From Iodobacter sp. (GTDB lineage Bacteria > Pseudomonadota > Gammaproteobacteria > Burkholderiales > Chitinibacteraceae): 51,325 nt of DNA. The notes under the pieces are model-generated. The model saw nothing but the letters and a program-made list of their open reading frames with translations, had not been told where the DNA came from and ran no database searches. Below are positions 3,307 through 37,256 of the stretch, in pieces. The number at the start of each line of letters is the position of its first letter. Positions within the stretch are counted from its first letter, which is position 1. The position numbers and the translations under genes were made by a program. The stretch lies in NCBI RefSeq assembly GCF_025352645.1, contig NZ_JANXSO010000020.1:1-51325 (forward strand). Reading direction: 5' to 3'.

Positions 3307-4634
3307 GAGCCTGTAAATCTTTCTGTGTAAATGCCTTTGGAATTATTGGTGGCCGTTCAGCCGGTCACCAAATTCTATAACGAAACGATTCAGCGCCATT
3401 CGCCAATTTTGAATCGGCATCGTCCATTTCTTTGAAGCCTGTTCGATCGCAAGGTAAATCACTTTCTTGGCCGATTCATCGCTTGGAAATACTTTGCGTC
3501 GCTTCGTCGCCGAACGAATCACGCTGTTCAGTGACTCGATGGCGTTGGTTGTATAAATCGCTTTGCGAATTTCCGGTGGATACTCGAAAATCGTACGCAA
3601 ATTGCCCCAGTTTGCTGTCCACGACCGTGAAATCAATGGGTAATTGGCTTGCCAGGTCTGCGTAAACCGCTCCAATTCCAGTAACGCTTGCTCTTCCGTG
3701 GTGGACTGGTAAATCTGTTTCAAATCCGCGGTAACGGCTTTGTAATCCTTCCAGGAAACATATCTTAAGCTGTTGCGCACCATGTGCACGATGCAAAGCT
3801 GAACCCGCGTGTGCGGGAATTCAACCGCAATCGCATCGGGGAAGCCTTTTAAGCCGTCGACACACGCAATCAAAATATCCTGCACCCCGCGTGTTTTTAG
3901 CTCAGTCAGCACGGAGAGCCAGAATTTAGCGCCTTCATTTTCGGACATCCATAAACCCAGTAATTCCTTGTGCCCGTCCATATTCACGCCCAAGGCTAAG
4001 TAAATCGCTTTGTTGATTACGCGTAAATTGTCACGGATTTTAATCACGATGCAGTCGAGGTAAACGATGGGGTAAATGGCATCCAGCGGGCGTGATTGCC
4101 ATAGGGTGATTTGCTCCAGCACGCGATCGGTGACGCGAGAAATCAAGGTGGCCGACACGTCTGCATCGTACATTTCTTTGAATGCCGCCACAATTTCGCG
4201 CGTGCTCAGCCCTTTGGCGTACAGCGTGAGAATTTGATCATCCATCTGCGTCAGGCGGGTTTGGCCCTTCTTGAGGAATTGTGGCTCGAATGAGCCATCG
4301 CGGTCGCGCGGCGTATGGATGTCCACCTCGCCATGCTGGCTTTTAAGGCGCTTTGGCGTGCTGCCATTGCGCGAATTGCCACGTTCACCCACCGTGCTAG
4401 CATGTTTCTCATAACCAAGATGGTCAGTTAATTCCGCATTCAGAGCGGTTTCGACGGTGAGTTTGAGTAGCTCACGCGAGAGCGCATTTAAATCCGCTTC
4501 AGTTTTAATATCTTTAGCGAGTTCAGCGGCAAGAGCCTGTAATTTTTGACGATCCATTGTGATGTCTGACATGAGTTTTCTCCGGGAAGAGATTAATCGG
4601 CCAAGGGCATTTACACAATTTTAGTTACAGGCTC
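3307..4634 (-). mobile_element. IS256-family insertion sequence
   Basis: About 1328 bp bounded by inverted repeats: left GAGCCTGTAA-N7-TGTGTAAATGCC and right, on the opposite strand, GAGCCTGTAA-N7-TGTGTAAATGCC. The left outer bases 3299-3306 (AAAAGCCG) and right outer bases 4635-4642 (AAAAGCGG) form an 8-bp target duplication with one mismatch; 8-9 bp duplications are typical of this family. The element holds one intact transposase gene, so it may still be active. Confidence 0.9.
3343..4572 (-). CDS. IS256-family (Mutator-type) transposase
   Basis: A 409-aa DDE transposase that moves the surrounding element by cut or copy-out and paste. The N-terminal part carries LTVETALNAELTDHLGYEKH and the RNG(S)TPKRLKSQHGEVDIHTPRDRDGSFEP motif of the family. 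The catalytic core contains YLDCIVIKIRD (first Asp), DILIACVDGLKGFPDAI (second Asp) and TTNAIESLNSVIRSATKRRK (Glu region), as in IS256/Mutator transposases. Length is normal and there is no frameshift. A leading MSDITMDRQKLQALAAELAKD is read from the ATG near 4572; the downstream MDRQ is an alternative start. Confidence 0.95.
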   Translation of the reverse strand: MSDITMDRQKLQALAAELAKDIKTEADLNALSRELLKLTVETALNAELTDHLGYEKHASTVGERGNSRNGSTPKRLKSQHGEVDIHTPRDRDGSFEPQFLKKGQTRLTQMDDQILTLYAKGLSTREIVAAFKEMYDADVSATLISRVTDRVLEQITLWQSRPLDAIYPIVYLDCIVIKIRDNLRVINKAIYLALGVNMDGHKELLGLWMSENEGAKFWLSVLTELKTRGVQDILIACVDGLKGFPDAIAVEFPHTRVQLCIVHMVRNSLRYVSWKDYKAVTADLKQIYQSTTEEQALLELERFTQTWQANYPLISRSWTANWGNLRTIFEYPPEIRKAIYTTNAIESLNSVIRSATKRRKVFPSDESAKKVIYLAIEQASKKWTMPIQNWRMALNRFVIEFGDRLNGHQ

Positions 4635-7973: not shown

Positions 7974-9389
7974 TTATTCTTCCCACCCTCCGCCTAGCGC
8001 CATAAATACCGCAATCTGATTGCTGGCTAGGGCTGCGTTTGAGCTGGCGAGCGCGCTTTCTGCGCTGGCTAGGCTGCGATTGGCGTCTAGCATGGTAAGA
8101 AATGTAGTTTTACCTGCTTTATAGAGTTGCTGCGCTTGGCTGGCGGCCTCGGTACTGGCACCACGGGCTTTGATTAAGGCGGCGTTGCGATCAAGCTCTC
8201 GAGCGTAAAGGGTAAGGGCGCTTTCTACTTCGCGCAATGCGGTGAGCACGGTGGAATCAAATTTAGCTAAAGCCCCTTCCGCCCCTGCTGTGGCGGCGTT
8301 GATTCTGGCGCGGACGGCCCCAGTATTGGGGATGGTCCATGAAATCAGCGGGCCTATGCCCCAACGCATGGTGTTGTTATCACCCAATTGATCGAGTAGG
8401 CCGGTTGATCCGCCGCTTAATCCAATGCTGATAGTGGGATAAAGATCAGCGGTCACTACACCAATACGGGCCGTGGCCGCTGCTAGGCCGCGCTCGGCTT
8501 GGCGAATATCAGGGCGGCGGCGGAGTAGATCGCTGCCTTTGCCACTGGGAATGGTGCTACTTGCGAGCTGCGGCGTAGTGTTGCACTGCAAGACGGAAGG
8601 GGGGAGTACTTTTTCTATGGATTCAGGAACATGGCCGGTGAGTACCGCAAGCCGGTACATGGCGATGCGACGCTGGGCTTCTAAAGGCGGTAGCGCGGCT
8701 TGCAATTGGGCGAGTTGCCCGCGCGAGCGCACCACATCTAGCGAGGTTCCCCTGCCTGCTTTAAACAGCTTTTCATCTAAGCTCAGGCTCTGCTGCTGCA
8801 GGCTGACTGATTGCCCAGCCACTTGCAGCTGTTTGCCAAATGAGCAGATATCGGCGTAGGCGCGGGTGGTTTCGCCAGCGACCGAGACGCGGACTAAATC
8901 GTAAGCGGCTTTAGCGGCTTCGCTATCGGCTTGTGAAGCTTCAATACCACGACTAATTTTGCCGACCAGATCAAATTGGTAAGCCAAACTAACGCCGGTA
9001 TCGTAGCTAAAGTCGTCTTCTAAAGCTTTGGGTGAACCTTTGGCTGCACCAGAAGCGCGACCATAGCCGGGCGCTGCATTCATGCTGATATTTGGAGATT
9101 GCAGGCTTTGTGCTTCACCCACTAAAGCGCGGCTGCGGGCTAGATTAGCCGCAGCTTGGCGCAGATCGGTGTTGGCCGCAAAGGCGTCTTCAAGCAATTT
9201 ATTTAATGCAGGCTCACGGTAAAGCTGCCACCAGTTTTTGGGCAGGGGCTGCTCATTATCGCTGCTGATAAATGCGCCTTGTGCGCTGTTGGTATCAATT
9301 TTGCTGTCTGCAGGGCCTTGGTAATTAGGGCCAACGGCTGCACAGCCACCCAAGGCAATCAGCAGCAGAAGAGGTATTTTTTTAAACAT
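7974..9389 (-). CDS. Outer-membrane efflux lipoprotein, NodT/OprM type
   Basis: Outer-membrane channel of a tripartite efflux pump, 471 aa. The N-terminus is a lipoprotein signal with lipobox LGGC (LLLLIALGGCAAVGPNY), followed by the typical GPNYQ.P start of the mature protein. Two OEP (TolC-like) repeats follow, with the LRQAAANLARSRALVGEAQ and DLYPTISIGLSGGSTGLLDQ segments typical of the RND/NodT family. It is the last gene of a minus-strand operon with a FUSC-type inner-membrane protein, a DUF1656 protein and an HlyD-like adaptor, 9 bp after the adaptor gene. It is therefore probably the exit duct for that pump, which in AaeAB-type systems exports aromatic carboxylic acids. Confidence 0.93.
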   Translation of the reverse strand: MFKKIPLLLLIALGGCAAVGPNYQGPADSKIDTNSAQGAFISSDNEQPLPKNWWQLYREPALNKLLEDAFAANTDLRQAAANLARSRALVGEAQSLQSPNISMNAAPGYGRASGAAKGSPKALEDDFSYDTGVSLAYQFDLVGKISRGIEASQADSEAAKAAYDLVRVSVAGETTRAYADICSFGKQLQVAGQSVSLQQQSLSLDEKLFKAGRGTSLDVVRSRGQLAQLQAALPPLEAQRRIAMYRLAVLTGHVPESIEKVLPPSVLQCNTTPQLASSTIPSGKGSDLLRRRPDIRQAERGLAAATARIGVVTADLYPTISIGLSGGSTGLLDQLGDNNTMRWGIGPLISWTIPNTGAVRARINAATAGAEGALAKFDSTVLTALREVESALTLYARELDRNAALIKARGASTEAASQAQQLYKAGKTTFLTMLDANRSLASAESALASSNAALASNQIAVFMALGGGWEE

Positions 9390-9398
9390 AATGGCCTC

Positions 9399-10268
9399 TT
9401 AGCGCTTGGTACTAGGGGTGACGTTTACCGTGACGGTTTGCCCAGAAACCAGCCGCACATCTTCAGGAATTTTATCTAGCGCAACACGCACGGGGATACG
9501 CTGGGCTAAGCGCACCCAGTTAAATGTGGGGTTAATATTAGGTAATAGATTGCTACCGGTGCCGCGATCCCTATCGGTAATCCCTGCGGCAATGCTTTCT
9601 ACATAGCCGGTGACAGCGGTTTTTTGGCCCATGATATTCATGGTTACGCTGTCATTTAGGTGGATTTTATCTAGCTTGGTTTCTTCAAAATAACCTTCCA
9701 CATAGAAAGAATCACGGTCGAGTAGCGCCAGCATGGGCTTGCCAGCAGTGGCAAAACCGCCTTTTTGTAAATCTAAATTGGTCACCACGCCATTCACTGA
9801 GGCATAAATGCGCGAGCGGGCCAGATTGAGCTTTGCCACATCATGGTTAGCTACGGCCTGAGCCAGCGCGGCTTGTAGCGATTCAACTTTAGCCTGTGTC
9901 TGCTCAATGCTTTCTTGTGATAACAGCCCGCTGAGTGAGCGATTACGCTGGGCCTCACGCTCTGCTTGCTTTAAGGCGCTACGCTGGGCCAGCTCTGCTG
10001 CGGTAGCTTGGCGCAAGGAAAGCGTAAAGCGCTCTGTATCAATCTCAAATAAAAGATCGCCAGTTTTAACCTGCTGATTATCTTTTACTGCCACGGCGGT
10101 AATTTGGCCGCTAACATCGGGCGCCACTTGAATCACTTGCACGCGAACGCGGCCATTGCGTGTCCAAGGCTCAACTTCATAATAATTCCAAAGCCGCAGG
10201 CCGGTAAAAATAGCGGCGCTAACAATGGCGAGGGTGATCAGGATTTTAATCATTTTTTTCATTAACAT
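9399..10268 (-). CDS. HlyD-family membrane fusion protein (AaeA-like)
   Basis: Periplasmic adaptor of 289 aa with one N-terminal membrane anchor (residues 5-25), a biotinyl-lipoyl-like half (VAPDVSGQITAVAVKDNQQVKTGDLLFEID), a coiled-coil hairpin (about 75-140, rich in A, Q, E) and the second lipoyl half (RIYASVNGVVTNLDLQKGGFATAG). It should link the FUSC transporter with the NodT channel. Its ATG overlaps the stop of the DUF1656 gene by one base (TAATG), implying translational coupling; in-frame ATGs at codons 3 and 6 are alternatives. The gene order FUSC-DUF1656-HlyD resembles aaeB-aaeX-aaeA but is reversed. Confidence 0.92.
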   Translation of the reverse strand: MLMKKMIKILITLAIVSAAIFTGLRLWNYYEVEPWTRNGRVRVQVIQVAPDVSGQITAVAVKDNQQVKTGDLLFEIDTERFTLSLRQATAAELAQRSALKQAEREAQRNRSLSGLLSQESIEQTQAKVESLQAALAQAVANHDVAKLNLARSRIYASVNGVVTNLDLQKGGFATAGKPMLALLDRDSFYVEGYFEETKLDKIHLNDSVTMNIMGQKTAVTGYVESIAAGITDRDRGTGSNLLPNINPTFNWVRLAQRIPVRVALDKIPEDVRLVSGQTVTVNVTPSTKR

Positions 10269-28707: not shown

Positions 28708-30624
28708 TTAATGTGCTTTTAAAGTGCGAATCGCAGTGGCCTTAAATTCAGCAAAATCCATACACTCCAGCAAACGCGCGCTGGCGCATTCCCTAATTAA
28801 AGAGATAAATAAATCGTAAATCGCCATCGCCTCTTCGTAATCTTCCTTGCTAATCGCCAGCAAGAAAATCACCGAAGCCACCGCGCCATCGCCCCAAGCG
28901 ACGCCCTGAGGGGCAAGCACGGTATAGACCACGGAGCGCTTGGCAAGCAGGCCCAAGGAATGCGGCACAGCAATGCCATCGCCTTGAATCGTAGATAAAA
29001 TCGCCTCGCGCTCGGTGACAGAAGGATAAAAATCCTCGTTCACAATGCCTTCTTGCTCTAATTGCAGGCACAGGCGCTGAAACAGTGCGTCTTGGGTAAT
29101 CGGCTCATCAATGCGCAAAAAGTGTTTAGCATCAAAATAGCGATCAAGCATATAGGGATGAGCGCGGTTGATCTCTACCGTTTTGGCCAATTGCTCTAGC
29201 TGAAACTCGGTAGGAAACGGCGACACCACAATCACCGGCTTGCCCTTATTGTCTAGTGGCTGGGTAGAGATCACAAAGTCGTCAGTTACCCCATCTAAGG
29301 CGTAATAATCCTGCTGCGAGATTGATTTACTCAGCAATACCTGCGGGAATTTTCGCTGCAACATCGCCTCAATCATCCGCGAAGTCGAATTGCCCATATC
29401 GCACACCAGCAAGGCCTGCGGGCGGCAGACAAAGGCAATTTGATAATGCCGCTCCAGCCCCACGCCAATATGCAGCACCAAATAGCCAATTTCATTTTCA
29501 CTCACTTGATAGGCCGTGTGCTTGGCCCAGCTTGAAACCGCGCTCAGGGTAAAATCATAGGCCAAAGCGTAATGCTGCTTGATATCGGTCAGAACGGGGT
29601 TAGGTAAATTAATCTGATAGCGCAAACGCGTGATCATGGTTTTAACGTGGGTGAGCAAATCCAAGCGCAGGCGGCTATCGTGGCGCAAATCATAGTGATA
29701 ATGGCGGTTGATATAATCCAGAATATAGCTAACCAAGGCCTCTGCATCGTCGGCATTAATCGTGTCAGGCAAGATACCCTGCGCGCTGCGGGCGGCGATA
29801 TTAACGGCTAAAAAGTGCGTTTCAGCGCTTGATAGCTCGCAGTGCGTGATTTGCCTCAGCTCCGCCACCAAATCACTGGCAAGGGTGGCTACATCTGGGC
29901 TCACTTCTTCCCCCGATCGCTCTTCGATGGGGAAACCATCGCTAATTCTTTTACTTGCTACGGCACAATACTGGCTCAAAAAATGAAAGCCTTCATCGCT
30001 TAAGCGCACCGAGCTACACGCAAGTAAACGTGGTAAGGCGTTCATAAAATTCATAGCCGCATTGGCTAAAACCGGATCACTCGCCAGCAGCGGATGGTGG
30101 TTTTCTTCACGGCGCAGCTGGCAGAGTAAATCGCTTAAACACACCCGAATCGCCGATTCTCTGCCCATCAGCTTCATGCCGTAATGTGGCCGTGTTTCGA
30201 TGCTTAATTGATATTGGGCAAGCTGGCTGCGCACCTCTGCCATATCGATTTGTAGCACCGCGCGGTTCACATACCAAGAATCCGCAAGATCTTGCAATTT
30301 AAACGCATAGGCGGAGGTCAAAAAACTCATCAATAAGTATTGAACCCGCTCGCCAGCGGTGCGCGGCAGTGCTTTGCTCGATTTTTGGTTGAAAGTCAGC
30401 TGAGCAAAGCGCTCTTCATTATGAATACTGAGCACATAGCCTTCACCTCGCTGCAAAATAAATTGCGCGCCATGCTCGAGCAAAGTCTCATTTAGCGCCG
30501 TAATATCGGTACGCACCGTGCGCGTAGACACCGAAAACCGGCGCGCCAGCTCATCCTGCGGCAGCGTTTCTGCCTGCAAAGTACGATAAAGCAAAGCCAG
30601 ACGCTTATAAGGAAAACGAACCAT
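28708..30624 (-). CDS. BglG/LicR-type PRD transcriptional activator with EIIB and EIIA domains
   Basis: A 638-aa regulator: an N-terminal HTH (about 5-60, LPQDELARRFSVSTRTVRTDI), a second HTH-like region (about 85-150), PRD1 (about 180-285), PRD2 (about 290-395), an EIIB-like domain with the phospho-Cys loop LVCDMGNSTSRMIE, and a C-terminal EIIA domain (fructose/mannitol type) with the active-site His in IAVPHSLGL. PRD2 keeps both histidines (LLTHVKTMITR, LVLHIGVGLERH), while PRD1 has Asn in place of the second (LAVNIAA). Such proteins activate PTS-linked sugar operons according to PTS phosphorylation state. It lies at the downstream end of the nine-gene cluster and is its probable regulator. 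The ATG at 30624 is preferred over a GTG at 30663. Confidence 0.9.
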   Translation of the reverse strand: MVRFPYKRLALLYRTLQAETLPQDELARRFSVSTRTVRTDITALNETLLEHGAQFILQRGEGYVLSIHNEERFAQLTFNQKSSKALPRTAGERVQYLLMSFLTSAYAFKLQDLADSWYVNRAVLQIDMAEVRSQLAQYQLSIETRPHYGMKLMGRESAIRVCLSDLLCQLRREENHHPLLASDPVLANAAMNFMNALPRLLACSSVRLSDEGFHFLSQYCAVASKRISDGFPIEERSGEEVSPDVATLASDLVAELRQITHCELSSAETHFLAVNIAARSAQGILPDTINADDAEALVSYILDYINRHYHYDLRHDSRLRLDLLTHVKTMITRLRYQINLPNPVLTDIKQHYALAYDFTLSAVSSWAKHTAYQVSENEIGYLVLHIGVGLERHYQIAFVCRPQALLVCDMGNSTSRMIEAMLQRKFPQVLLSKSISQQDYYALDGVTDDFVISTQPLDNKGKPVIVVSPFPTEFQLEQLAKTVEINRAHPYMLDRYFDAKHFLRIDEPITQDALFQRLCLQLEQEGIVNEDFYPSVTEREAILSTIQGDGIAVPHSLGLLAKRSVVYTVLAPQGVAWGDGAVASVIFLLAISKEDYEEAMAIYDLFISLIRECASARLLECMDFAEFKATAIRTLKAH

Positions 30625-31183
30625 AATGACCTTGACCCCAGCAAGGCGCAGCTTCTTCGCCACAAGAAGCCCACCATAAATCGATCAATCAAAATCGCCT
30701 GAATCAGCGCGAAGTGAACAGGGTGAGACAATGCTCGCTTTAGTAAGTTGCTGGGCTGCATCGTAAGCTTTTACGCTATGTGCATCGAGTTAAACCACTC
30801 CCATACAGTGCATGTAGGGCGGGTGAAACTCCATATGCGCTAAGCAAAGTCAAAAAGACCTTTTTAGTGCCTTTGGCACGTTGATTTTGGAGCGGTTGGC
30901 CACCGCGGGGGCCTTCCTTTCTTGCTTCGCCAAGAAACGAAGCCAAAGAAGGCGACCCCACGAAACACGAAGGCCCCTGCGCTGCGGACAATCGAGTCGG
31001 CGGCGGGCGGGATTGGCTCGCTGCCTCGCTCCCTTGCCGAAACCCCGCCCCGCTTGTTCCTCGCTCCGGCGTGTTTCAAGGGGATTTTAAAAAGCCCTAT
31101 GCAGAGAGCGTAATCATTACATTTTTCGCTGTTTGCTAATGAAAAAGCAATTTGGTTAGCTTGTATAGGATTAAACCGCACAC
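30625..31183. other. Spacer with repeat copy A between regulator and enzyme genes
   Basis: No gene is supported here. Most of the space is taken by copy A of the dispersed repeat described separately. The remainder upstream of the regulator start should contain its promoter, but no clear site was seen. Confidence 0.6.
30813..31098 (+). repeat. Dispersed structured repeat, copy A
   Basis: About 285 bp that closely matches 34233-34520 (same orientation) and, in its central part, 51096-51206. Shared landmarks in order are GTAGGGCGGGT, AGTGCCTTYGGCACGTTGAT, GCCTTCCTTTCTTG ... CCAAGAAACGAAGCCAAAG, ACGAAGGCCCCT, TCGCTGCCTCGCT, CCGAAACCCCG and CGGCGTGYTTCAAGGGG. Several parts can fold into hairpins, such as GTGCC/GGCAC and TTTCTTG/CAAGAAA. 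It separates the aldolase gene from the BglG-type regulator gene. Confidence 0.85.
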
Positions 31184-31933
31184 TTACCCCAACTTTGCCT
31201 TCACCATCGCCAGCAAAGTTGCCACATCTTCCGGGCGGGTGTTGCCGCTGGCTTTGTCGATAATCGAGCTATAGATATGGGGGATGATTTTTGTGACGCC
31301 TGCGTCCAGCGCAATCCCCAAAATTTCTTCAAAGTTTTGCAGATCAATTCCACCGGTGGGCTCTAGCCAGAAATCATTGGCCGCGCAGGCTTTGGCCACG
31401 GCGATATATTCATCGCGGTATTTCAGGCCGTCCATTGAGAAATACTTTACCGAATTGCCGCCCATATCTTTCAGCATGGCAATGGCGGTGGCAACCGGCA
31501 CAATTCCATCTGCCTGTTGGCTGCTTAAAGGGCCGGTAGAGATTTTTACCATGCCAACTTGGCCAGTAGGGGAGATCAAACCATTCACCACCGTATTATC
31601 TTGCCCGACCAGAGCACGGGCTGGGCCTACTCCGGTGAACACTTGGTTGATATGCTGCGGCTGAATCTGGCGGCTGATCTCATTCACCATCGCCGATTGC
31701 CGAGGATCGCCCGCCCCTAGGCCCACAGAAATTGCATTCTCAATCAGCTGGGCATAGGCCTGCATATCTTCAACGGCAGTGGCCACATCGGGGTAGTTTT
31801 TAGAAAGCAGGCCCACCACCACGGCACCCTCTGCGGCCTGATAAATATCCACGGCATTTTGCTTGCTGCCGCCTAAAACATTCAAACACACGCGATCACG
31901 ATAAAAATTTGGACTTAATTGACTTAATTTCAT
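31184..31933 (-). CDS. dgaF: DgaF-type 2-dehydro-3-deoxy-6-phosphogluconate aldolase
   Basis: A 249-aa class I aldolase-like TIM barrel of the family found next to DgaE-type lyases. In Salmonella, DgaF cleaves 2-keto-3-deoxygluconate 6-phosphate to pyruvate and glyceraldehyde 3-phosphate. Visible family segments are NFYRDRVCLNVLGGSKQNA, VFTGVGPARALVGQDNTVVN, GMVKISTGPLSSQQADGIVP with a candidate Schiff-base Lys, and WLEPTGGIDLQNFEEILGIA. Its ATG overlaps the stop of the DgaE-type gene by four bases (ATGA). It acts in the cytosol as the last step of the predicted pathway. The true substrate could be a stereoisomer, as the cluster differs from the Salmonella dga operon in its transporter. Confidence 0.85.
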   Translation of the reverse strand: MKLSQLSPNFYRDRVCLNVLGGSKQNAVDIYQAAEGAVVVGLLSKNYPDVATAVEDMQAYAQLIENAISVGLGAGDPRQSAMVNEISRQIQPQHINQVFTGVGPARALVGQDNTVVNGLISPTGQVGMVKISTGPLSSQQADGIVPVATAIAMLKDMGGNSVKYFSMDGLKYRDEYIAVAKACAANDFWLEPTGGIDLQNFEEILGIALDAGVTKIIPHIYSSIIDKASGNTRPEDVATLLAMVKAKLG

Positions 31934-33048
31934 AGTAATTTTTCCTTTAATAATTGCTGAATCTGCTCGCTGATTGTGCTGAGCTGGCTATCGCTGACGC
32001 TGCGTACATCCACCTCAACCTTGCCTTCATTGGCTTTGTATTCACGGAAGTAAATAGCGATAGGCCCCCCTTTAAGCGCGGCCACCATATCGATGGCGCT
32101 GCGGCCCAAGGCGGCCTGATCAAAGGATATTTCTGTGCGGGCAATATCACGCCCTGCGCCATCCCAAACCACTTTGGCGCTCACGCCATGAATCTCGTTA
32201 AGCGCCGCAATAAAGGGCCGCATTTTGGCAACCATTTGCTCGCCGCTTTCTTTCTCACGCAATAGATAGGTTTCAATGGCACAAGTCAGGCCCAAAATGC
32301 CTTCTTTGCCGACCTTCATCGCGCGGCCAATGCCTTTGCCCTGCTTTTTAACCCAAGCCACGTACTGCTCGCGGCCCAGCACTAAGCCGCTGGATGGGCC
32401 TTCGATGGCTTTTGCACCGCTGTAAATCACCAAATCCGCGCCTAGCTGATAATAAAGACGCAAGTCTTCTTCGGCGGCCGCGTCCACAATCAAAGGCACG
32501 CCATGGCTTTTAGCTACGGCCACAGCCTCTGCCACGCTCAACATGCTTTTTTGCACGGTATGGTGCGATTTAATATATAAAATCGCGGCAGTATTGGGGG
32601 TAATCACCGCAGCCAGCTGCTCAGCCGAGCATTCATTGGCCCAACCCGCTTCAACCACTTTGCCACCACCCAGCGCCACCATCGTCGCCACTGGCGCGCC
32701 GTAATTCACGTTATGACCTTTTGCCAGCACAATTTCGCAAGGGCCATGAATAGGCTTGGCATGCAGATTGAGCAGCAAATCTGCGTCGTCTTTAATAATC
32801 ACAGCGGCCACCGCCTGAGCGATTCCGGCGGATGCGCAAGACACCACCACCGCGCTTTCTACCCCCAGCAAACCCGCAATATATGCACCGGTTTTATCGA
32901 CTAAATCCTGCATCTCGAAATAATGATTCAGCCCCAGATTAACCGCCGCCACCACCTCAGGCTGCGGGGTAGACACACCAAGAATAGTCATCCGCCCGGA
33001 AGCATTAATCACCGGCTTAAGTTGGTACTTTTTATAAATCGAAGACAT
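31930..33048 (-). CDS. dgaE: DgaE-type PLP-dependent ammonia-lyase
   Basis: A 372-aa SelA-like fold type I PLP enzyme. In Salmonella, DgaE removes ammonia from D-glucosaminate 6-phosphate to give 2-keto-3-deoxygluconate 6-phosphate. The PLP-binding Lys is Lys213 in DLVIYSGAKAIEGPSSGLVL; Asp189 in VPLIVDAAAEED should contact the pyridine nitrogen. The N-terminus (MSSIYKKYQLKPVINASGRMT) is typical of the family. The gene overlaps the amidohydrolase by 17 bp and the aldolase by 4 bp, so the three are co-translated. A phosphorylated 2-amino sugar acid is the expected substrate, although no kinase gene is in the cluster. Confidence 0.88.
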   Translation of the reverse strand: MSSIYKKYQLKPVINASGRMTILGVSTPQPEVVAAVNLGLNHYFEMQDLVDKTGAYIAGLLGVESAVVVSCASAGIAQAVAAVIIKDDADLLLNLHAKPIHGPCEIVLAKGHNVNYGAPVATMVALGGGKVVEAGWANECSAEQLAAVITPNTAAILYIKSHHTVQKSMLSVAEAVAVAKSHGVPLIVDAAAEEDLRLYYQLGADLVIYSGAKAIEGPSSGLVLGREQYVAWVKKQGKGIGRAMKVGKEGILGLTCAIETYLLREKESGEQMVAKMRPFIAALNEIHGVSAKVVWDGAGRDIARTEISFDQAALGRSAIDMVAALKGGPIAIYFREYKANEGKVEVDVRSVSDSQLSTISEQIQQLLKEKLL

Positions 33049-34168
33049 GATCTTTTTTTCCTTCTTCAGTCAAAAATACCTTTCCCGCGACAATCGCCGC
33101 CAAAGGCCTGAGTTGGTGATCAGAAATAAGCGATTCGCCCTCACAATCGCGCTGAGTATTGGGCGTTTTATCCAGAGCAAAAATCGAGATATCGGCATCA
33201 AAGCCAACAGCCAGTTGGCCTTTGCTAGGCAGATTAAGCGCCTTGGCGGCATGGGTGGTGACGCAGCTAATCACCTGCGCGAGGCTCATGCCCAAAGACA
33301 GAAACTTGGCCATCACTGGGGCCAAGCCATAGACCGGGCCAGCGATGCGGTTACGGCAGTAAATATCCGAGCTAATCGTGTTCGGCAAAATGCCCTGAGC
33401 AATCGCTTGCCTTGCCACCGCAAAACTAAAGCTCGCCCCGCCGTGGCCCACATCAAGGCAAACACCACGCTGAATCGCCCTATAAATACTAGGCCGCAGC
33501 ACGCCTTCGGCATTCAAAATGCGATTGGGTTTGCCGTTATAGCAGTGGGTTAAAATATCGCCCTCATCGAGTAACTCGGCAATATCATCCAAATCGGGCG
33601 GGGTATTGCCCACATGCACCATCAGCGGCAAATGGCGATGTTTTTGCTGAATTGCTTTGGCCATTTGCAAAGGGATAATCCCATTACTGCCCACGACGCT
33701 TGAGCTTAAACGCGCTTTTAAGCCAACGATAAACTCAGGGAATTGGCCAATTGCTTGGCTGGCGGCAGCCTCATCAATATCGGCCAAATCGGCCAGCTCG
33801 TGCTGAGTGACCAAACCGATGCGAGAAATATTCAATAAAGCCCGCACTTCAGTCTGGCAGGCCTGCGCCAGCTGATAAAAATGCGCAATATCATTAGCGC
33901 CACAACTACCCGCATCCACCACCGTGGTCACACCGCCCGCAATACCGACTAAATCAGGCTGATCGTTATAAATAGGCGAGGCCGAATAGCAATGCACATG
34001 GCCATCAATCCAGCCTGCGCTGGCATAAAACTGACCTTTTAAATCCATAGTTTGACGAGCTTGGGCGTTGATCTGGCCAATGGCCGCAATCTTGCCGTCC
34101 TTCATCGCAATATCAAAAATGGCATCGTCTGTGGGACTCACTGCACGACGGATGATTAAATCAAACAT
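33032..34168 (-). CDS. Amidohydrolase/deacetylase-family metallohydrolase
   Basis: A 378-aa amidohydrolase-superfamily enzyme of the subgroup that travels with DgaE/DgaF-type genes. It carries the full dinuclear metal site: HxH at His57/His59 (WIDGHVHCYS), the bridging carbamylated Lys151 (FIVGLKARL), His185 (LMVHVGN), His208 (ILTHCYNG) and the Asp in TISSDIYC. It may open a cyclic amide or remove an N-acyl group before the lyase acts; this is inference. The ATG at 34168 has AAGGAA upstream; the ORF start at 34201 adds only RYKQKKKRNP-like residues. It is followed by dgaE with a 17-bp overlap. Confidence 0.87.
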   Translation of the reverse strand: MFDLIIRRAVSPTDDAIFDIAMKDGKIAAIGQINAQARQTMDLKGQFYASAGWIDGHVHCYSASPIYNDQPDLVGIAGGVTTVVDAGSCGANDIAHFYQLAQACQTEVRALLNISRIGLVTQHELADLADIDEAAASQAIGQFPEFIVGLKARLSSSVVGSNGIIPLQMAKAIQQKHRHLPLMVHVGNTPPDLDDIAELLDEGDILTHCYNGKPNRILNAEGVLRPSIYRAIQRGVCLDVGHGGASFSFAVARQAIAQGILPNTISSDIYCRNRIAGPVYGLAPVMAKFLSLGMSLAQVISCVTTHAAKALNLPSKGQLAVGFDADISIFALDKTPNTQRDCEGESLISDHQLRPLAAIVAGKVFLTEEGKKDHVFDL

Positions 34169-34675
34169 GGGATTCCTTTTTTTTTTCTGCTTATACCGCA
34201 TCCAAGCTGAGCCAACGCCTGCAGTGTCTTTCGTAGGGCGGGTAAAACCCGCCGAGTAATACTAAGCCAAGTCAACAAGACTTTTTTTAGTGCCTTCGGC
34301 ACGTTGATTTAGGTGCGGGCGTCCCGCTGGGCCTTCCTTTCTTGAACGGCCAAGAAACGAAGCCAAAGAAGGCCGCCCCAGCCAGCACGAAGGCCCCTCA
34401 CTGCGGATAATCGGCTCGGCGAAAAAGGCTGCTCGCTCGCTGCCTCGCTACCCCTTTTCCGAAACCCCGATCCGCTTATTCCTCGCTTCGGCGTGCTTCA
34501 AGGGGGGATTTAAGCCCCGTGCCTAGAGTCGCGAGATATATCTAATTTTGCTGCGGTTGAAACTAATCAAAACCACATAACAGCTCAATTCCAAATAGTT
34601 TTTCTCCGTGAAACTCCGTGTTCTCTGTGGCCTCCGTGGTTCAAGATTTGGGTTTTCCGTCATCAAATCAGTAAA
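34169..34675. other. Spacer with repeat copy B and a second repeat inside the cluster
   Basis: About 500 bp between the amidohydrolase and DUF4310 genes. It holds copy B of the dispersed repeat and, at 34604-34656, a different interspersed motif (CTCCGTG units then GGTTCAAGATTTGGGTTTT) that recurs inverted at 49501-49528. No gene or clear promoter was seen. Confidence 0.6.
34233..34520 (+). repeat. Dispersed structured repeat, copy B
   Basis: Near full-length relative of copy A (30813-31098) in the same orientation. The inner hairpin keeps its stem while the loop differs: TTTCTTG-AACGG-CCAAGAAA here against TTTCTTG-CTTCG-CCAAGAAA in copy A. It sits between the transporter-like block and the enzyme block of the nine-gene cluster. 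Confidence 0.85.
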
Positions 34676-35338
34676 TCAAACAATCGCCACCGGAAACACC
34701 GAGCCAAACAGCATCGCGCCTAAAATCGCGCCGCCAGTAATGGGCTTGCCCCAGAGGTAGAAGGCTAAAGCGCCGATTAATGAGCCCACGCCAATGGGGA
34801 TGGATGCAGCAATCGCGGTGATGATGATCAAGGGGCCTAGAAAACGCCCCGATGAATTACCCGCACCCATCATCACGTCGGCACCAAAGGTTGAATTGGA
34901 TTGGTTCACCGTAAACTTACGCGCTAGGATAATAATTCCGCCGATGGCGCAGCCAATCACCATGCCTGTGGCGAGCGCGGCAAAGAAGTTATCCAGCGGA
35001 TAAGTCACGCCTGCGCCCAAAAACATGGCAGGAATGCCTAGGCCCACACCGGTCATAATCGCGCCGCCGATATCTAAAATACCGACCAGCGCGCCTTCGA
35101 TAATCCGTGCAAACAAAAAGCTCGCACCAAAGGCCGCCACTGCGCCATAAACGCCGGTATCCATTCCCGCACGCAGCATGGAGACAAAAGCCACTTCATT
35201 GAATGCGCCTATGCCGTAGACGTAATACATATGCGTTCCGGCAAATACCCCGGCTGACAGCAAGCCTACAAAGAAAGGAAAGCTCCAATCGGCGAACCAG
35301 AAATTAGCCTGTACTTCTTCTTTAGTGAGTTCAGTCAT
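34676..35338 (-). CDS. DUF4310-family membrane protein
   Basis: A 220-aa integral membrane protein with about six hydrophobic helices and many glycines (MTGVGLGIPAMFLGAGVTYP, MMGAGNSSGRFLGPLII). I recognise it as the DUF4310 family, known mainly from this type of gene cluster and without an assigned function. With DUF4311, encoded 10 bp upstream, it is the only membrane component in the cluster, so the pair is the best candidate for its transporter. It starts at an ATG with an AAGGAGA-like site and is the last gene of the transporter block before repeat copy B. Confidence 0.82.
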   Translation of the reverse strand: MTELTKEEVQANFWFADWSFPFFVGLLSAGVFAGTHMYYVYGIGAFNEVAFVSMLRAGMDTGVYGAVAAFGASFLFARIIEGALVGILDIGGAIMTGVGLGIPAMFLGAGVTYPLDNFFAALATGMVIGCAIGGIIILARKFTVNQSNSTFGADVMMGAGNSSGRFLGPLIIITAIAASIPIGVGSLIGALAFYLWGKPITGGAILGAMLFGSVFPVAIV

Positions 35339-35348
35339 TTTCGTCTCC

Positions 35349-36122
35349 TTAAGGCTTCAGCGTGTTATGCAGCAGCTCATACCAAGCCGGTATGGCTAAA
35401 TGGAAGGATTGAATCATTTTCAAATCAAAGCCACGGAAGAAGGCGCTTAATACAAATAACATCACCACGCTGACCATCATCGACTTGGTGATTCTGTTCC
35501 AGCCACCATCATCAACGCCTTTACCAATCAAGATACCCAGCACGAGGCCCGGTACGGCATTGCCCATAATCAGCTGCGCTAGGCCACCAAAAATCGTCCC
35601 CCAAAAGCCCGAGCGTTTACCCGCTTCAATCGCTGCCAGCCAGAAAATCACCGGCATGATGATATTGACCAGCATATTGGCCGCAGGCACCAAGACTTTA
35701 ACCGCGGTGACTTGTAAAGAAGGCGGCACAGCCGAGGCAGTGGTATTTAAAAACGCCACCACCGCCATACCGATCAAGCCACAGGCCAGCGCCATTTTTC
35801 TAGGGTTGTGCAGGGTCTCGGCCAGATTGGGATTTTTGCTCATCAGCGCCGCAGCGCCCCAATGCGGAATCACACGGTGATCCACATCCTGAGTAAACGC
35901 CCCAGCGGCCACCGATGAGGCCCAGGCATTAAAAAAGAAGCCCAAGCCAAAGGAGAAATGCGAAGCCGCATCGCCTTCACACGAATTAAGCTCGCCTAAG
36001 GTACGAAACGCGCCTATCCCCTGTGCCGTTGGCGCATGAAACATCCGCGCAGCCCCCGCCCCAACAGCAAAACCAACCAAGCCACCAATCACCAGCGACT
36101 TCATTAATATCATCAGCAACAT
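35349..36122 (-). CDS. DUF4311-family membrane protein
   Basis: A 257-aa integral membrane protein with about seven predicted helices. It carries the conserved FRTLGELNSCEGDAASHFSFGLGF segment near the N-terminal third and NAVPGLVLGILIGKGVDDGGWN later. I recognise DUF4311, the partner of DUF4310; biochemical function is unknown. The charged, Cys/His-containing loop (SCEGDAASH) between helices would suit substrate or metal contact. The ATG at 36122 follows GAGGAAGG and lies 14 bp after the DUF4312 stop; the ORF start at 36182 would overlap that gene by 47 bp and has no ribosome binding site. Confidence 0.82.
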   Translation of the reverse strand: MLLMILMKSLVIGGLVGFAVGAGAARMFHAPTAQGIGAFRTLGELNSCEGDAASHFSFGLGFFFNAWASSVAAGAFTQDVDHRVIPHWGAAALMSKNPNLAETLHNPRKMALACGLIGMAVVAFLNTTASAVPPSLQVTAVKVLVPAANMLVNIIMPVIFWLAAIEAGKRSGFWGTIFGGLAQLIMGNAVPGLVLGILIGKGVDDGGWNRITKSMMVSVVMLFVLSAFFRGFDLKMIQSFHLAIPAWYELLHNTLKP

Positions 36123-36135
36123 AACGGCCTTCCTC

Positions 36136-36444
36136 TTAGGACTTGGATGGGTGAGTAGTAAAAGACACCTGATCGATATCAATCGCCGTCACACTCACAA
36201 TCACTTCCAGCTGCACTTTGTAATGGGAGCGAATACGCGGCAGAAACAAGAATAAAAATCGCTCCTTCCTTTGTGACTCCTCAGCCATAAGTACCACCAC
36301 ATCTTGTGGCTCGATGCGCAGCAAAATCTTTTGGCTACCTGCCATCACGGCGCGCTGCACTTGGGAGAGCGCATCGGCAAAAGCCTTAGCTTTACTGTCG
36401 CCCATGCCGCTCACAATCACTTTGCTCTGGAAGTGTTCTTTCAT
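36136..36444 (-). CDS. DUF4312-family small soluble protein
   Basis: A 102-aa protein of alternating strand and helix (KVIVSGMGDSKAKAFADALS, then KILLRIEPQDVVVLMAEES) with no membrane segment. I recognise DUF4312 from the DUF4310/4311 neighbourhood. The single His4 near the N-terminus could be of interest if this cluster encodes PTS-like components, but this is speculation. Its ATG directly follows the stop codon of the SFCGS gene with no gap. Confidence 0.8.
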   Translation of the reverse strand: MKEHFQSKVIVSGMGDSKAKAFADALSQVQRAVMAGSQKILLRIEPQDVVVLMAEESQRKERFLFLFLPRIRSHYKVQLEVIVSVTAIDIDQVSFTTHPSKS

Positions 36445-36807
36445 TTAATTGCCGTACTTTTTCTGGTAAGCCACAACCAAGCGCTGGCCCAGCTCTTCCT
36501 TATCCATAAAGCCAAAGCCTAGGACGACGTAGCCTTCTTCAATCGCCGTAATGCCTTCTTCAACCGAGCGCATGCCATATTTCGCCTTATAGCCATGCTT
36601 GGTTTGCGCCGTAATCGCCCCAGCTCCGCCGCTGCCGCAAAATGAAATACCCAGCTGCGCGTTTTCAGTCTTCATCACATCGCCCAGCTTCATATCCGCA
36701 GCCACACCCGGAATCACCACCGCACGCCCCGCTGCCAATTCAACACCAGCACCTACTTTTTGGCCTTTACCTAAACGATCGCCAATTACCACGGTAATTT
36801 GAGTCAT
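36445..36807 (-). CDS. SFCGS glycine-rich family protein
   Basis: A 120-aa soluble, glycine-rich protein with the name-giving motif around Cys57 (LGISFCGSGGAGAITAQ). The family is known from this type of cluster and is uncharacterised. The motif looks like the phospho-cysteine loop of PTS EIIB proteins (C-x-x-G-x-x-T/S), so a role as a phosphoryl carrier is possible; this is an inference. A good AAGGA lies before the ATG. The PRD gene is upstream and DUF4312 follows immediately. Confidence 0.8.
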   Translation of the reverse strand: MTQITVVIGDRLGKGQKVGAGVELAAGRAVVIPGVAADMKLGDVMKTENAQLGISFCGSGGAGAITAQTKHGYKAKYGMRSVEEGITAIEEGYVVLGFGFMDKEELGQRLVVAYQKKYGN

Positions 36808-36849
36808 TTCAATTCCTTTTTAGTGAAGAGCTTATTGCAGAGATGGATA

Positions 36850-37170
36850 TTATTTATTCTTTGCCACTTCAAAATGAATCGATAACAGCAGCGCTTCCTT
36901 GTTTGGCAAATTGCCAAACATCGCCGTCACCGTTTCGGATAGCCGCATCGCAGTGGCTGAAATTTCGTCAAATAAATCGGCATCAAAATCAGGCAAACCC
37001 TCACCCGTCAAAGAGCGCCGAGCCATCGCCTTGATATGTGCATCCATCTTCATTTGCTGCACATCGCTGAGGTATTTGTTTTCTACCTCTAGCAACTCAG
37101 TAATCTGCCTCAGCACCCGCTCGGCCAAAGCCTGAATCTCAACCTCGCTTACTTCTGCAACTTCACCCAT
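36850..37170 (-). CDS. Stand-alone PRD-domain protein
   Basis: A 106-aa protein made of a single PTS regulation domain without a DNA-binding domain. Both characteristic histidine regions are present: DAHIKAMARRSLTGE near the middle and LLLSIHFEVAK at the C-terminus. It may modulate the BglG-type regulator at the other end of the cluster or sense phosphorylation of the transporter. The ATG at 37170 has GGGAG at good spacing and is preferred over the ATG at 37191. It is the first gene of the nine-gene cluster. Confidence 0.82.
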   Translation of the reverse strand: MGEVAEVSEVEIQALAERVLRQITELLEVENKYLSDVQQMKMDAHIKAMARRSLTGEGLPDFDADLFDEISATAMRLSETVTAMFGNLPNKEALLLSIHFEVAKNK

Positions 37171-37256
37171 GTTTACTCCCAAGCCTGTCATAGCTAGCTG
37201 TGATTAATTCGATGACTCATCGTAAGCAATATGGGAGGCGCTTTGTACCTGTTTTA

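Follow-up and report, generated by a model that had tools for sequence, protein, structure and literature searches.

The closest described system is DgaABCDEF of Salmonella, in which PTS uptake is followed by a DgaE-type lyase and the DgaF aldolase to give pyruvate and glyceraldehyde-3-phosphate, according to the accessible part of the report (PMC9529869). Judging by the title of reference 1 of that paper, DgaABCD is a mannose-family PTS permease. A second relevant system is the ong pathway by which marine bacteria use GlcNAc1A, where OngIT, OngB, OngC and KdgK serve to deacetylate, deaminate and form KDG-6-phosphate, as far as the available portion of PMC9537276 describes it. We compared these systems with a nine-gene cluster in a 51,325-nucleotide stretch of Iodobacter sp. 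DNA (the window). Like DgaABCDEF, this cluster codes for a DgaE-type ammonia-lyase and a DgaF aldolase that matches model NF047796. Unlike DgaABCDEF, it has genes for SFCGS, DUF4312, DUF4311 and DUF4310 proteins in place of DgaABCD, and it adds an amidohydrolase and a PRD-Mga-EIIA regulator; a Pfam scan found no mannose-family EIIABCD among the nine proteins. The cluster would share its chemical logic with ong if its substrate is N-acetyl-glucosaminate. Ong differs, by its annotation in the portion of that source available, in having the D-aminoacylase-like OngB, the SSS transporter OngIT, phosphorylation as the last step and the repressor OngR, and the families that Pfam and NCBIfam assign to the cluster proteins bear names other than those of the annotated ong set (OngIT, OngB, OngC, OngD, KdgK).

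The open reading frames of the window place all nine genes on the minus strand at 28708-37191, in the order PRD protein, SFCGS, DUF4312, DUF4311, DUF4310, amidohydrolase, lyase, aldolase and regulator. The initial annotation gave the same order, although it started the cluster at 37170 and the first gene begins at 37191. Spacing is uneven, with gaps of ~470 and ~520 bp at the DUF4310/amidohydrolase and aldolase/regulator junctions. Each of these gaps holds one copy of a single repeat, at 34284..34505 and 30861..31083, respectively, with pieces of the former 86-91% identical to those of the latter. Throughout, family assignments are Pfam and NCBIfam profile matches above curated cut-offs, and in these scans the nine proteins include no kinase and no known transporter, as originally proposed. 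The expectation that similar clusters exist elsewhere was also borne out, as the gene order recurs in Pseudomonadota and Bacillota among 90 loci compared. A chance arrangement is excluded, since other genera, and a second phylum, carry the same genes in the same order. The five genes coding for PRD, SFCGS, DUF4312, DUF4311 and DUF4310 (the block) are also found without the enzymes beside them; specifically, L030 (from Vagococcus, genome G398) and L117 consist of the block plus a regulator with no adjacent enzymes. A blastn search with DUF4311 against an E. coli collection (5,426 genomes) gave no match. Literature searches on SFCGS, DUF4310-4312, EF_0830 and EF_0837, whose scope mostly excluded subscription journals, listed no paper on this subject. 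One paper, the only match with at least two of the tags EF_0832 to EF_0839, describes EF0839 as an Eda-like enzyme that is divergent and perhaps belongs to amino-sugar metabolism (PMC7701990).

Enzymes and regulator of the cluster

The putative amidohydrolase/deacetylase (33032..34168, minus strand) is of the EF_0837 type (TIGR03583, 516.5 bits relative to a cut-off of 432.15). We place its start at an inner ATG at 34168, and its alignment with the solved 8wzy begins at residue 1. It is similar over its full length to EF_0837/cog3964 amidohydrolases (2ics, 2ogj, 8wzy), and residues H57, H59, K151, H185, H208 and D268 are each present in at least 98% of 87 sequences. A related amidohydrolase, Atu3266, is said to hydrolyse acetyl-R-mandelate and N-acetyl-D-serine. 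The enzyme is present in 86/90 loci, and the 4 loci that lack it (L016, L030, L074, L117) are also without an adjacent DgaE. The PLP-dependent ammonia-lyase (31930..33048, minus strand) belongs to the DgaE family (TIGR01437), which agrees with the initial annotation, but it scores below the model for true D-glucosaminate-6-phosphate lyase (NF047797; 370.7 relative to 600 bits). Its Arg304, Arg335 and Arg349 are kept in 86/86 sequences and align with Arg301, Arg332 and Arg346 of the solved DgaE, which form the docked phosphate site of that enzyme in the accessible text of PMC9529869. The DgaF-type KDGP aldolase (31184..31933, minus strand; PF07071/TIGR03581) exceeds NF047796 with 383.5 bits relative to a cut-off of 300. 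Together these enzymes probably carry out N-deacylation, loss of ammonia and an aldol cleavage that yields pyruvate and glyceraldehyde-3-phosphate. This enzyme order, already suggested earlier, is plausible, and the docked-phosphate residues of DgaE are kept. We are largely confident that the cluster codes for a catabolic route. The Arg triad does not prove phosphorylation before deamination, because it is family-wide and also occurs in DgaE proteins encoded beside kinases, which weakened the argument from the phosphate site.

The regulator (28708..30663, minus strand) contains HTH_11, Mga, PRD and EIIA_2 domains by Pfam. It had been described as a PRD-EIIB-EIIA protein, and of these parts PRD and EIIA_2 were found, whereas the EIIB part was undetected by Pfam. 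The regulator also varies among loci, as Pfam EIIA_2 is present in the window and in the Bartonella copies and absent from two Bacillota regulators scanned.

Proteins of the conserved block

The small PRD protein (36850..37191, minus strand; EF_0829/TIGR03582, 98.7 bits relative to a cut-off of 69.35) is a candidate phospho-histidine carrier. His52 and His106 are each present in at least 97% of 84 aligned sequences, and both were also read by eye in 4/4 divergent Bacillota copies (L118-L121). The PRD domain is otherwise known from regulators. Fusions occur in two loci, PRD-SFCGS in L118 and PRD-regulator in L030.

The SFCGS protein (36445..36807, minus strand; PF14272/TIGR03577) looks like a remote relative of RpiB/LacAB with a conserved cysteine, Cys57, which is present in at least 97% of 89 sequences. 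Specifically, hhalign gave 94.6% and 94.2% with RpiB/LacAB relative to 0.2-2.3% for controls, and the SFCGS loop cysteine aligns with the RpiB/LacAB loop cysteine. NCBIfam also gave a weak match (E 0.023), to a model of ribose-5-phosphate isomerase, and 7/9 sub-threshold matches in a PDB profile search belong to the RpiB/LacAB family, the best two of the nine being unrelated proteins. Pfam PF02502 gave no match up to E 1. SFCGS is unlike RpiB/LacAB in its FCGSGGAG loop, its conserved N-terminal RLGKGQ loop and its uptake gene context. We dropped the reading of SFCGS as an ordinary EIIB in favor of the RpiB relation: despite its conserved Cys, it resembles RpiB, and hhalign detected nothing to connect it with glucitol EIIB, other EIIB families having been compared by Pfam only. 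DUF4312 (36136..36444, minus strand; PF14189/TIGR03578) is soluble by hydropathy and a candidate accessory protein; a phosphocarrier role was rejected, with no conserved His or Cys among 91 sequences.

The two candidate permease subunits are DUF4311 (35349..36122, minus strand; PF14188/TIGR03580), with ~5-6 hydrophobic segments and with C48, H55, H82 and H105 kept in at least 97% of 89 sequences, and DUF4310 (34676..35338, minus strand; PF14187/TIGR03579), with ~6-7 hydrophobic segments. Mutual homology of the two was rejected at the depth of an hhalign comparison (0.4%). No homology of either to transporters was found with Pfam, NCBIfam, hhalign or PDB profile searches. Pfam matches up to E 1 included no PTS family, and the PDB searches gave one match for DUF4310 and two for DUF4311, all to unrelated proteins at E 0.39 or worse. 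A glucitol-type PTS was likewise rejected, as GutA, GutB and both GutE parts reached at most 2.5% by hhalign with SFCGS, DUF4312, PRD, DUF4311 and DUF4310. EIIC/EIID homology of DUF4310 and DUF4311 was not observed in the Pfam scan or in hhalign comparisons limited to the glucitol EIIC parts. A weak DUF4310 match in genome G470 (L112; E 7e-4, below cut-off) was dropped; judged by eye, the protein that contains it resembles a DUF421-type protein.

Uptake, phosphorylation and the alternatives

From the families, conservation and gene context observed we infer activities as follows. Our best explanation of the whole, held tentatively and at slightly less than even confidence, is that the cluster takes up and breaks down an N-acylated 2-amino-2-deoxy aldonic acid. 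DUF4311 and DUF4310 would form a membrane channel, and phosphate would pass from PEP via EI and HPr to His52/His106 of the small PRD protein and on to Cys57 of SFCGS, from where it would be transferred to C6 of the substrate as this is taken up. The amidohydrolase would then take off the acyl group and the DgaE homologue ammonia, giving 2-keto-3-deoxygluconate-6-phosphate that the aldolase would cleave to pyruvate and glyceraldehyde-3-phosphate, while the PRD-EIIA regulator would link expression to the PTS phosphorylation state. That the block is an uptake system is likely, PTS-dependent phosphorylation by the block has about an even chance, and the relay from PRD histidine to SFCGS cysteine is a doubtful part of the scheme. 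The enzyme-free blocks of L030 and L117 and the two PRD fusions also speak for the scheme, whereas the negative transporter homology searches for DUF4310 and DUF4311 and the resemblance of SFCGS to an isomerase family rather than to a known EIIB speak against it. In several bacteria the block stands where a transporter or sugar kinase would stand, and it is therefore perhaps an unrecognised phosphorylating sugar-uptake machine.

Evidence on phosphorylation comes from a draw of 398 genomes of Bacillota, the phylum of G398, in which 13 DgaE-family loci above cut-off occur in 12 genomes. There is no sugar kinase in the operon of the five block loci (L116, L118-L121) or of two loci with mannose-type PTS genes (L114, L180), whereas six loci with neither (L115, L175-L179) all have a sugar kinase, matching that of E. 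faecalis, directly after the aldolase. This operon contrast (0/5 relative to 6/6) has a Fisher p of 0.002 for loci that are not independent by descent. Among the 90 block loci a kinase is found in one, L013 of E. faecalis, where both are in one cluster. A DgaE tree (18 sequences, L116 left out) groups the mannose-PTS locus L180 with block loci L119 and L121 (node 1.000), and thus one system replaced the other there. However, G398 and G644 hold both the block (L030, L117) and a kinase operon (L115, L175), and per genome the kinase operon is found in 2/7 block genomes relative to 4/5 others (p 0.24), or 4/4 others without the mannose-PTS genome (p 0.06). The kinase contrast is thus clear per operon and not per genome, and the coexistence of block and kinase operon in two genomes lowered our confidence in phosphorylation from slightly better than even to even. 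A PTS gene also does not exclude a kinase, because the L115 and L175 operons carry PTS IIC as well.

These same two genomes favor a block that is a non-phosphorylating transporter, with the free acid deacylated and deaminated and KDG phosphorylated by a kinase whose gene lies elsewhere. The model for this is the marine ong pathway, which deacetylates before phosphorylation in the available text of PMC9537276. For the kinase of the two block-less operons scanned, the top-scoring models are those of KDG-type kinases, with scores below cut-off, and this kinase may therefore act after DgaE; a KDG kinase could be located elsewhere in block genomes. We consider this alternative rather unlikely given the operon contrast and the PRD proteins and EI/HPr genes that accompany the block. 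Specifically, an HPr-EI fusion gene comes after the cluster on a Bartonella plasmid, and an EI gene is near the block in Bacillota locus L120, which makes two lineages with such neighbors. An EI-type protein is present in 19/19 block genomes, a count with no background control. With kinase-less block operons and EI or HPr-EI nearby, the earlier view of DUF4310/DUF4311 as a new, perhaps phosphorylating, permease is still the best reading, except that the two are not alone, as SFCGS, DUF4312 and the small PRD protein travel with them.

Regarding the substrate, N-acetyl-D-glucosaminate (GlcNAc1A, to which LPMO-oxidised chitin is finally degraded) is the leading candidate, one that we put somewhat below an even chance, with a close relative as the alternative. 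A lactonase is present in 32/90 loci, with an export-signal-like start by eye in 31/32, and this apparently exported enzyme suits an aldonic acid as substrate. In one 398-genome draw AA10 LPMO is found in 3/12 block genomes, the window's own genome included, relative to 22/386 others (p 0.033 with the own genome and 0.14 without it, taxonomy uncontrolled). Among the 50 genomes of 80 scanned loci, 29 have an LPMO and 21 do not. LPMO co-occurrence is thus weak support for oxidised chitin. A peptidoglycan-derived substrate, such as a muramyl or anhydro-sugar acid or a fragment resembling an N-acyl-D-amino acid, would be congruent with the MupG plus PTS IIC found in two Enterococcus block clusters (L013, L095) and two kinase operons (L115, L175), and with L178, where the enzymes adjoin N-acetylmuramate-type genes (MurQ, a MurP-like IIBC and a MurR/RpiR-type regulator). 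It is nevertheless improbable, as MupG plus IIC occurs in only 2/90 block loci and the match to NF047796 points to a gluconate-type skeleton; an oxidised (aldonate) intermediate is also not known from MurNAc recycling.

Still less probable is that SFCGS functions as an RpiB/LacAB-like sugar-phosphate isomerase and that the block serves to take up and isomerise an aldose or ketose, with a loose tie to the enzymes. The profile match with its aligned loop cysteine and the enzyme-free blocks of L030 and L117 fit this reading, but the enzyme set occurs in 4 loci (L176-L179) of genomes without a DUF4310 match, L118 carries SFCGS as a fusion with PRD, and conversion of an amino aldonate to KDGP needs no isomerisation. 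Plain D-glucosaminate as for DgaABCDEF, with the amidohydrolase in a side role, accounts for the DgaE and DgaF homologues but is very unlikely given a DgaE below the true-DgaE cut-off and an amidohydrolase that is missing only where an adjacent DgaE is missing as well.

Possible implications for the PTS and for oxidised chitin use

New here are the operon-level kinase contrast, the HPr-EI/EI neighbors, the relation of SFCGS to RpiB/LacAB and the lactonase association. Literature searches on GlcNAc1A together with the PTS or DgaE gave no report of such a system among the matches listed, as judged by titles and abstract starts. In its furthest form, which we regard as unlikely, the block would be a group-translocating permease that depends on PEP and represents a new superfamily, with a phosphocysteine subunit derived from an RpiB/LacAB-type isomerase fold and a PRD protein that passes phosphate to it as the EIIA. 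It would import N-acetyl-glucosaminate and provide a phosphorylated oxidised-chitin route, in contrast to the free acids of the marine route, in many Enterobacterales, Aeromonas, Enterococcus and some other Bacillota. If the proposal is true, four uncharacterised families that are widespread in bacteria, including pathogens, would gain a function at once, and PTS permeases would include a further class, one for which no relation to the families compared was detected. AHA_3910 to AHA_3917, which appear in the family names, are Aeromonas hydrophila locus tags, and the cluster is therefore a candidate for oxidised-GlcNAc use in Aeromonas. For two Aeromonas strains grown on chitin, the accessible part of one report describes distant or no matches to OngB/OngC and leaves oxidised GlcNAc use unconfirmed (PMC11653859). 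This cluster may fill that gap.

The nine-gene cluster and its enzymes

The initial annotation had described a cluster of nine genes from named families, and this is borne out by nine open frames on the minus strand (window 28708-37191) whose products all exceed the curated cut-offs of those families. The enzyme genes overlap at 33032-33048 and 31930-31933, as in genes that are translationally coupled. Gaps of ~470 and ~520 bp, the two largest in the cluster, precede the amidohydrolase and regulator genes, and each holds one copy of the same ~220 bp repeat (30861-31083 and 34284-34505; pieces 86-91% identical). A search of the window with the core 24-mer of this repeat returned no third copy. 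A 409 aa frame at 3343-4572 looks by eye like an IS256-type transposase.

The amidohydrolase conserves H57, H59, K151, H185, H208 and D268, which we take to be metal ligands, and the aldolase meets the DgaF model. The DgaE homologue conserves His163, the PLP lysine and three arginines whose counterparts in the solved DgaE lie near a docked 6-phosphate (PMC9529869). DgaE relatives encoded beside kinases keep these phosphate-site residues too.

Distribution and integrity of the five-gene block

Scanning the species-genome collection with a sequence pattern yielded at least 498 confirmed relatives, 80 of which were retained for a compared set of 90 loci (L013-L096 and L116-L121). Across this set we counted PRD in 85, SFCGS in 89 and DUF4312 in 90 loci, with DUF4311 (90) and DUF4310 (89) inflated by design because loci were retrieved via similarity to one or the other; amidohydrolase, DgaE, aldolase and regulator were each found in 86. 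Part of the missing genes reflect contig ends (L058, L074), and four Bacillota loci counted as PRD misses, L118-L121, do encode a PRD-like protein when their sequences are read. In these four loci a HAD-type gene, Cof-like by eye, closes the cluster after the aldolase. The cluster of L016 looks decayed, since its amidohydrolase and DgaE are not detectable and its DUF4310 match spans only 40 residues; this locus comes from NZ_AP026896.1, an Aeromonas caviae entry of 4.94 Mb that is classed as a plasmid. DUF4310 occurs in 12 genomes of an even draw of 398 from the window's phylum, the window's own genome counted, and is above the cut-off in 7 of 398 drawn from the phylum of the Vagococcus genome G398, which is itself among the seven and was picked for having the block.

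The genes for PRD, SFCGS, DUF4312, DUF4311 and DUF4310 behave as one unit. Specifically, the Vagococcus locus L030 and locus L117 carry the regulator and all five block genes with the enzymes absent alongside. The PRD forms the C-terminus of the regulator in L030, and in L118 it is fused upstream of SFCGS in one protein.

Possible phosphorylation by the block or by a kinase

The block belongs to none of the PTS families by the tests made, but judged by its gene context it may work like a PTS permease. In the phylum of G398, 13 DgaE-family loci above the cut-off occur in 12 of 398 genomes, and all 13 were read. Five have the block and no kinase, two (L114 and L180) have mannose-type PTS genes and no kinase, with other genes intervening between PTS genes and enzymes in L180, and six have amidohydrolase-DgaE-aldolase followed by a sugar kinase. 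Per operon, a kinase is therefore found in 0/5 block loci versus 6/6 others (p 0.002), where a gene in L119 and L121 that by eye resembles an acid-sugar kinase, located in a separate gene group past the regulator, was counted as another operon. At the operon level the block occupies the position of a kinase or PTS. L180 also groups with block loci L119 and L121 (support 1.000 in a DgaE tree of 18 sequences), which indicates that mannose-type PTS and block were swapped at that branch, in either direction.

This contrast shrinks when counted per genome, with the kinase operon in 2/7 block genomes versus 4/5 others (p 0.24), or 4/4 others upon removal of the mannose-PTS genome (p 0.06). The reason is that G398 and G644 hold kinase loci L115 and L175, which also have an E. 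faecalis-type PTS IIC and MupG, and carry the block elsewhere (L030 and L117). This coexistence weakens the case for a PTS, and with it the overall reading, and strengthens the alternative that the block is a non-phosphorylating transporter with phosphorylation by a kinase encoded elsewhere, which we regard as less likely than not. We give PTS-dependent phosphorylation by the block an even chance.

Two loci have PTS energy genes nearby. In L015, from a Bartonella plasmid, one gene directly after the regulator (8047-10062) encodes HPr and full EI domains, and in L120 an EI gene lies ~650 bp past the HAD gene. The L015 plasmid is 55.7 kb, and its HPr-EI fusion constitutes a portable PTS energy unit. 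As to co-occurrence with PTS genes, proposed earlier as a check, an EI or HPr-EI gene is near the cluster in 2 of 90 loci and an EI-type protein is found in 19 of 19 block genomes examined, a count confined to block genomes.

Of the His and Cys positions in the soluble block proteins, just three reach 97% conservation or more, namely His52 and His106 of PRD and Cys57 of SFCGS, and the DUF4312 alignment contributes none; the membrane protein DUF4311 likewise keeps Cys48 and several His. The conserved PRD and SFCGS residues would be compatible with a His-to-Cys phosphate relay. The SFCGS profile matched an RpiB/LacAB profile of 23 Bacillota proteins at 94.6% (E 7e-8, 73 columns) versus 0.2-2.3% for one reversed and five column-shuffled controls, and at 94.2% when enlarged to 88 sequences; it had no match to glucitol PTS profiles. 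A ribose-5-phosphate isomerase model was its second-best NCBIfam match (E 0.023), and 7 of 9 sub-threshold PDB matches were RpiB/LacB, the top two being unrelated. Cys57 aligns onto the Cys of the CGTG loop of RpiB/LacAB, a residue that serves RpiB as catalytic base.

The substrate

The DgaE/aldolase chemistry and a lactonase gene in the cluster suggest an aldonic acid, and the amidohydrolase suggests that it is N-acetylated. The lactonase occurs in 32 of 90 loci (PF10282 in L014), and 31 of these 32 have by eye an export-signal-like start, with the start codon ambiguous in some and L089 cut. According to PMC12017989, LPMO-oxidised chitin finally yields GlcNAc1A, which equilibrates with its lactone. 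The association of LPMO with the block is mixed, as raw counts across taxa give 3/12 block genomes versus 22/386 others, and 29 of 50 genomes of scanned loci. A real hint pointing away from oxidised chitin is L178 (5159-13677), where amidohydrolase-DgaE-aldolase-kinase genes lie beside a MurR/RpiR-type regulator, a MupG-like protein, a MurP-like IIBC and MurQ. This locus presents an unexplained tie between amino-sugar-acid breakdown and N-acetylmuramate use. Genes for a PTS IIC, an unknown 90-99 aa protein and MupG are also found in the Enterococcus/Vagococcus-type loci L013 (9794-12529), L095 (11597-14339), L115 (10855-13634; IIC of the lactose/cellobiose family) and L175 (3213-5904), and perhaps serve a disaccharide ending in a sugar acid.

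Overall, we tentatively read the cluster as directing PTS-driven uptake and breakdown of an N-acyl-2-amino aldonate, at slightly less than even probability. The chemistry of this pathway is already known, and it is the import machinery that appears to be new.
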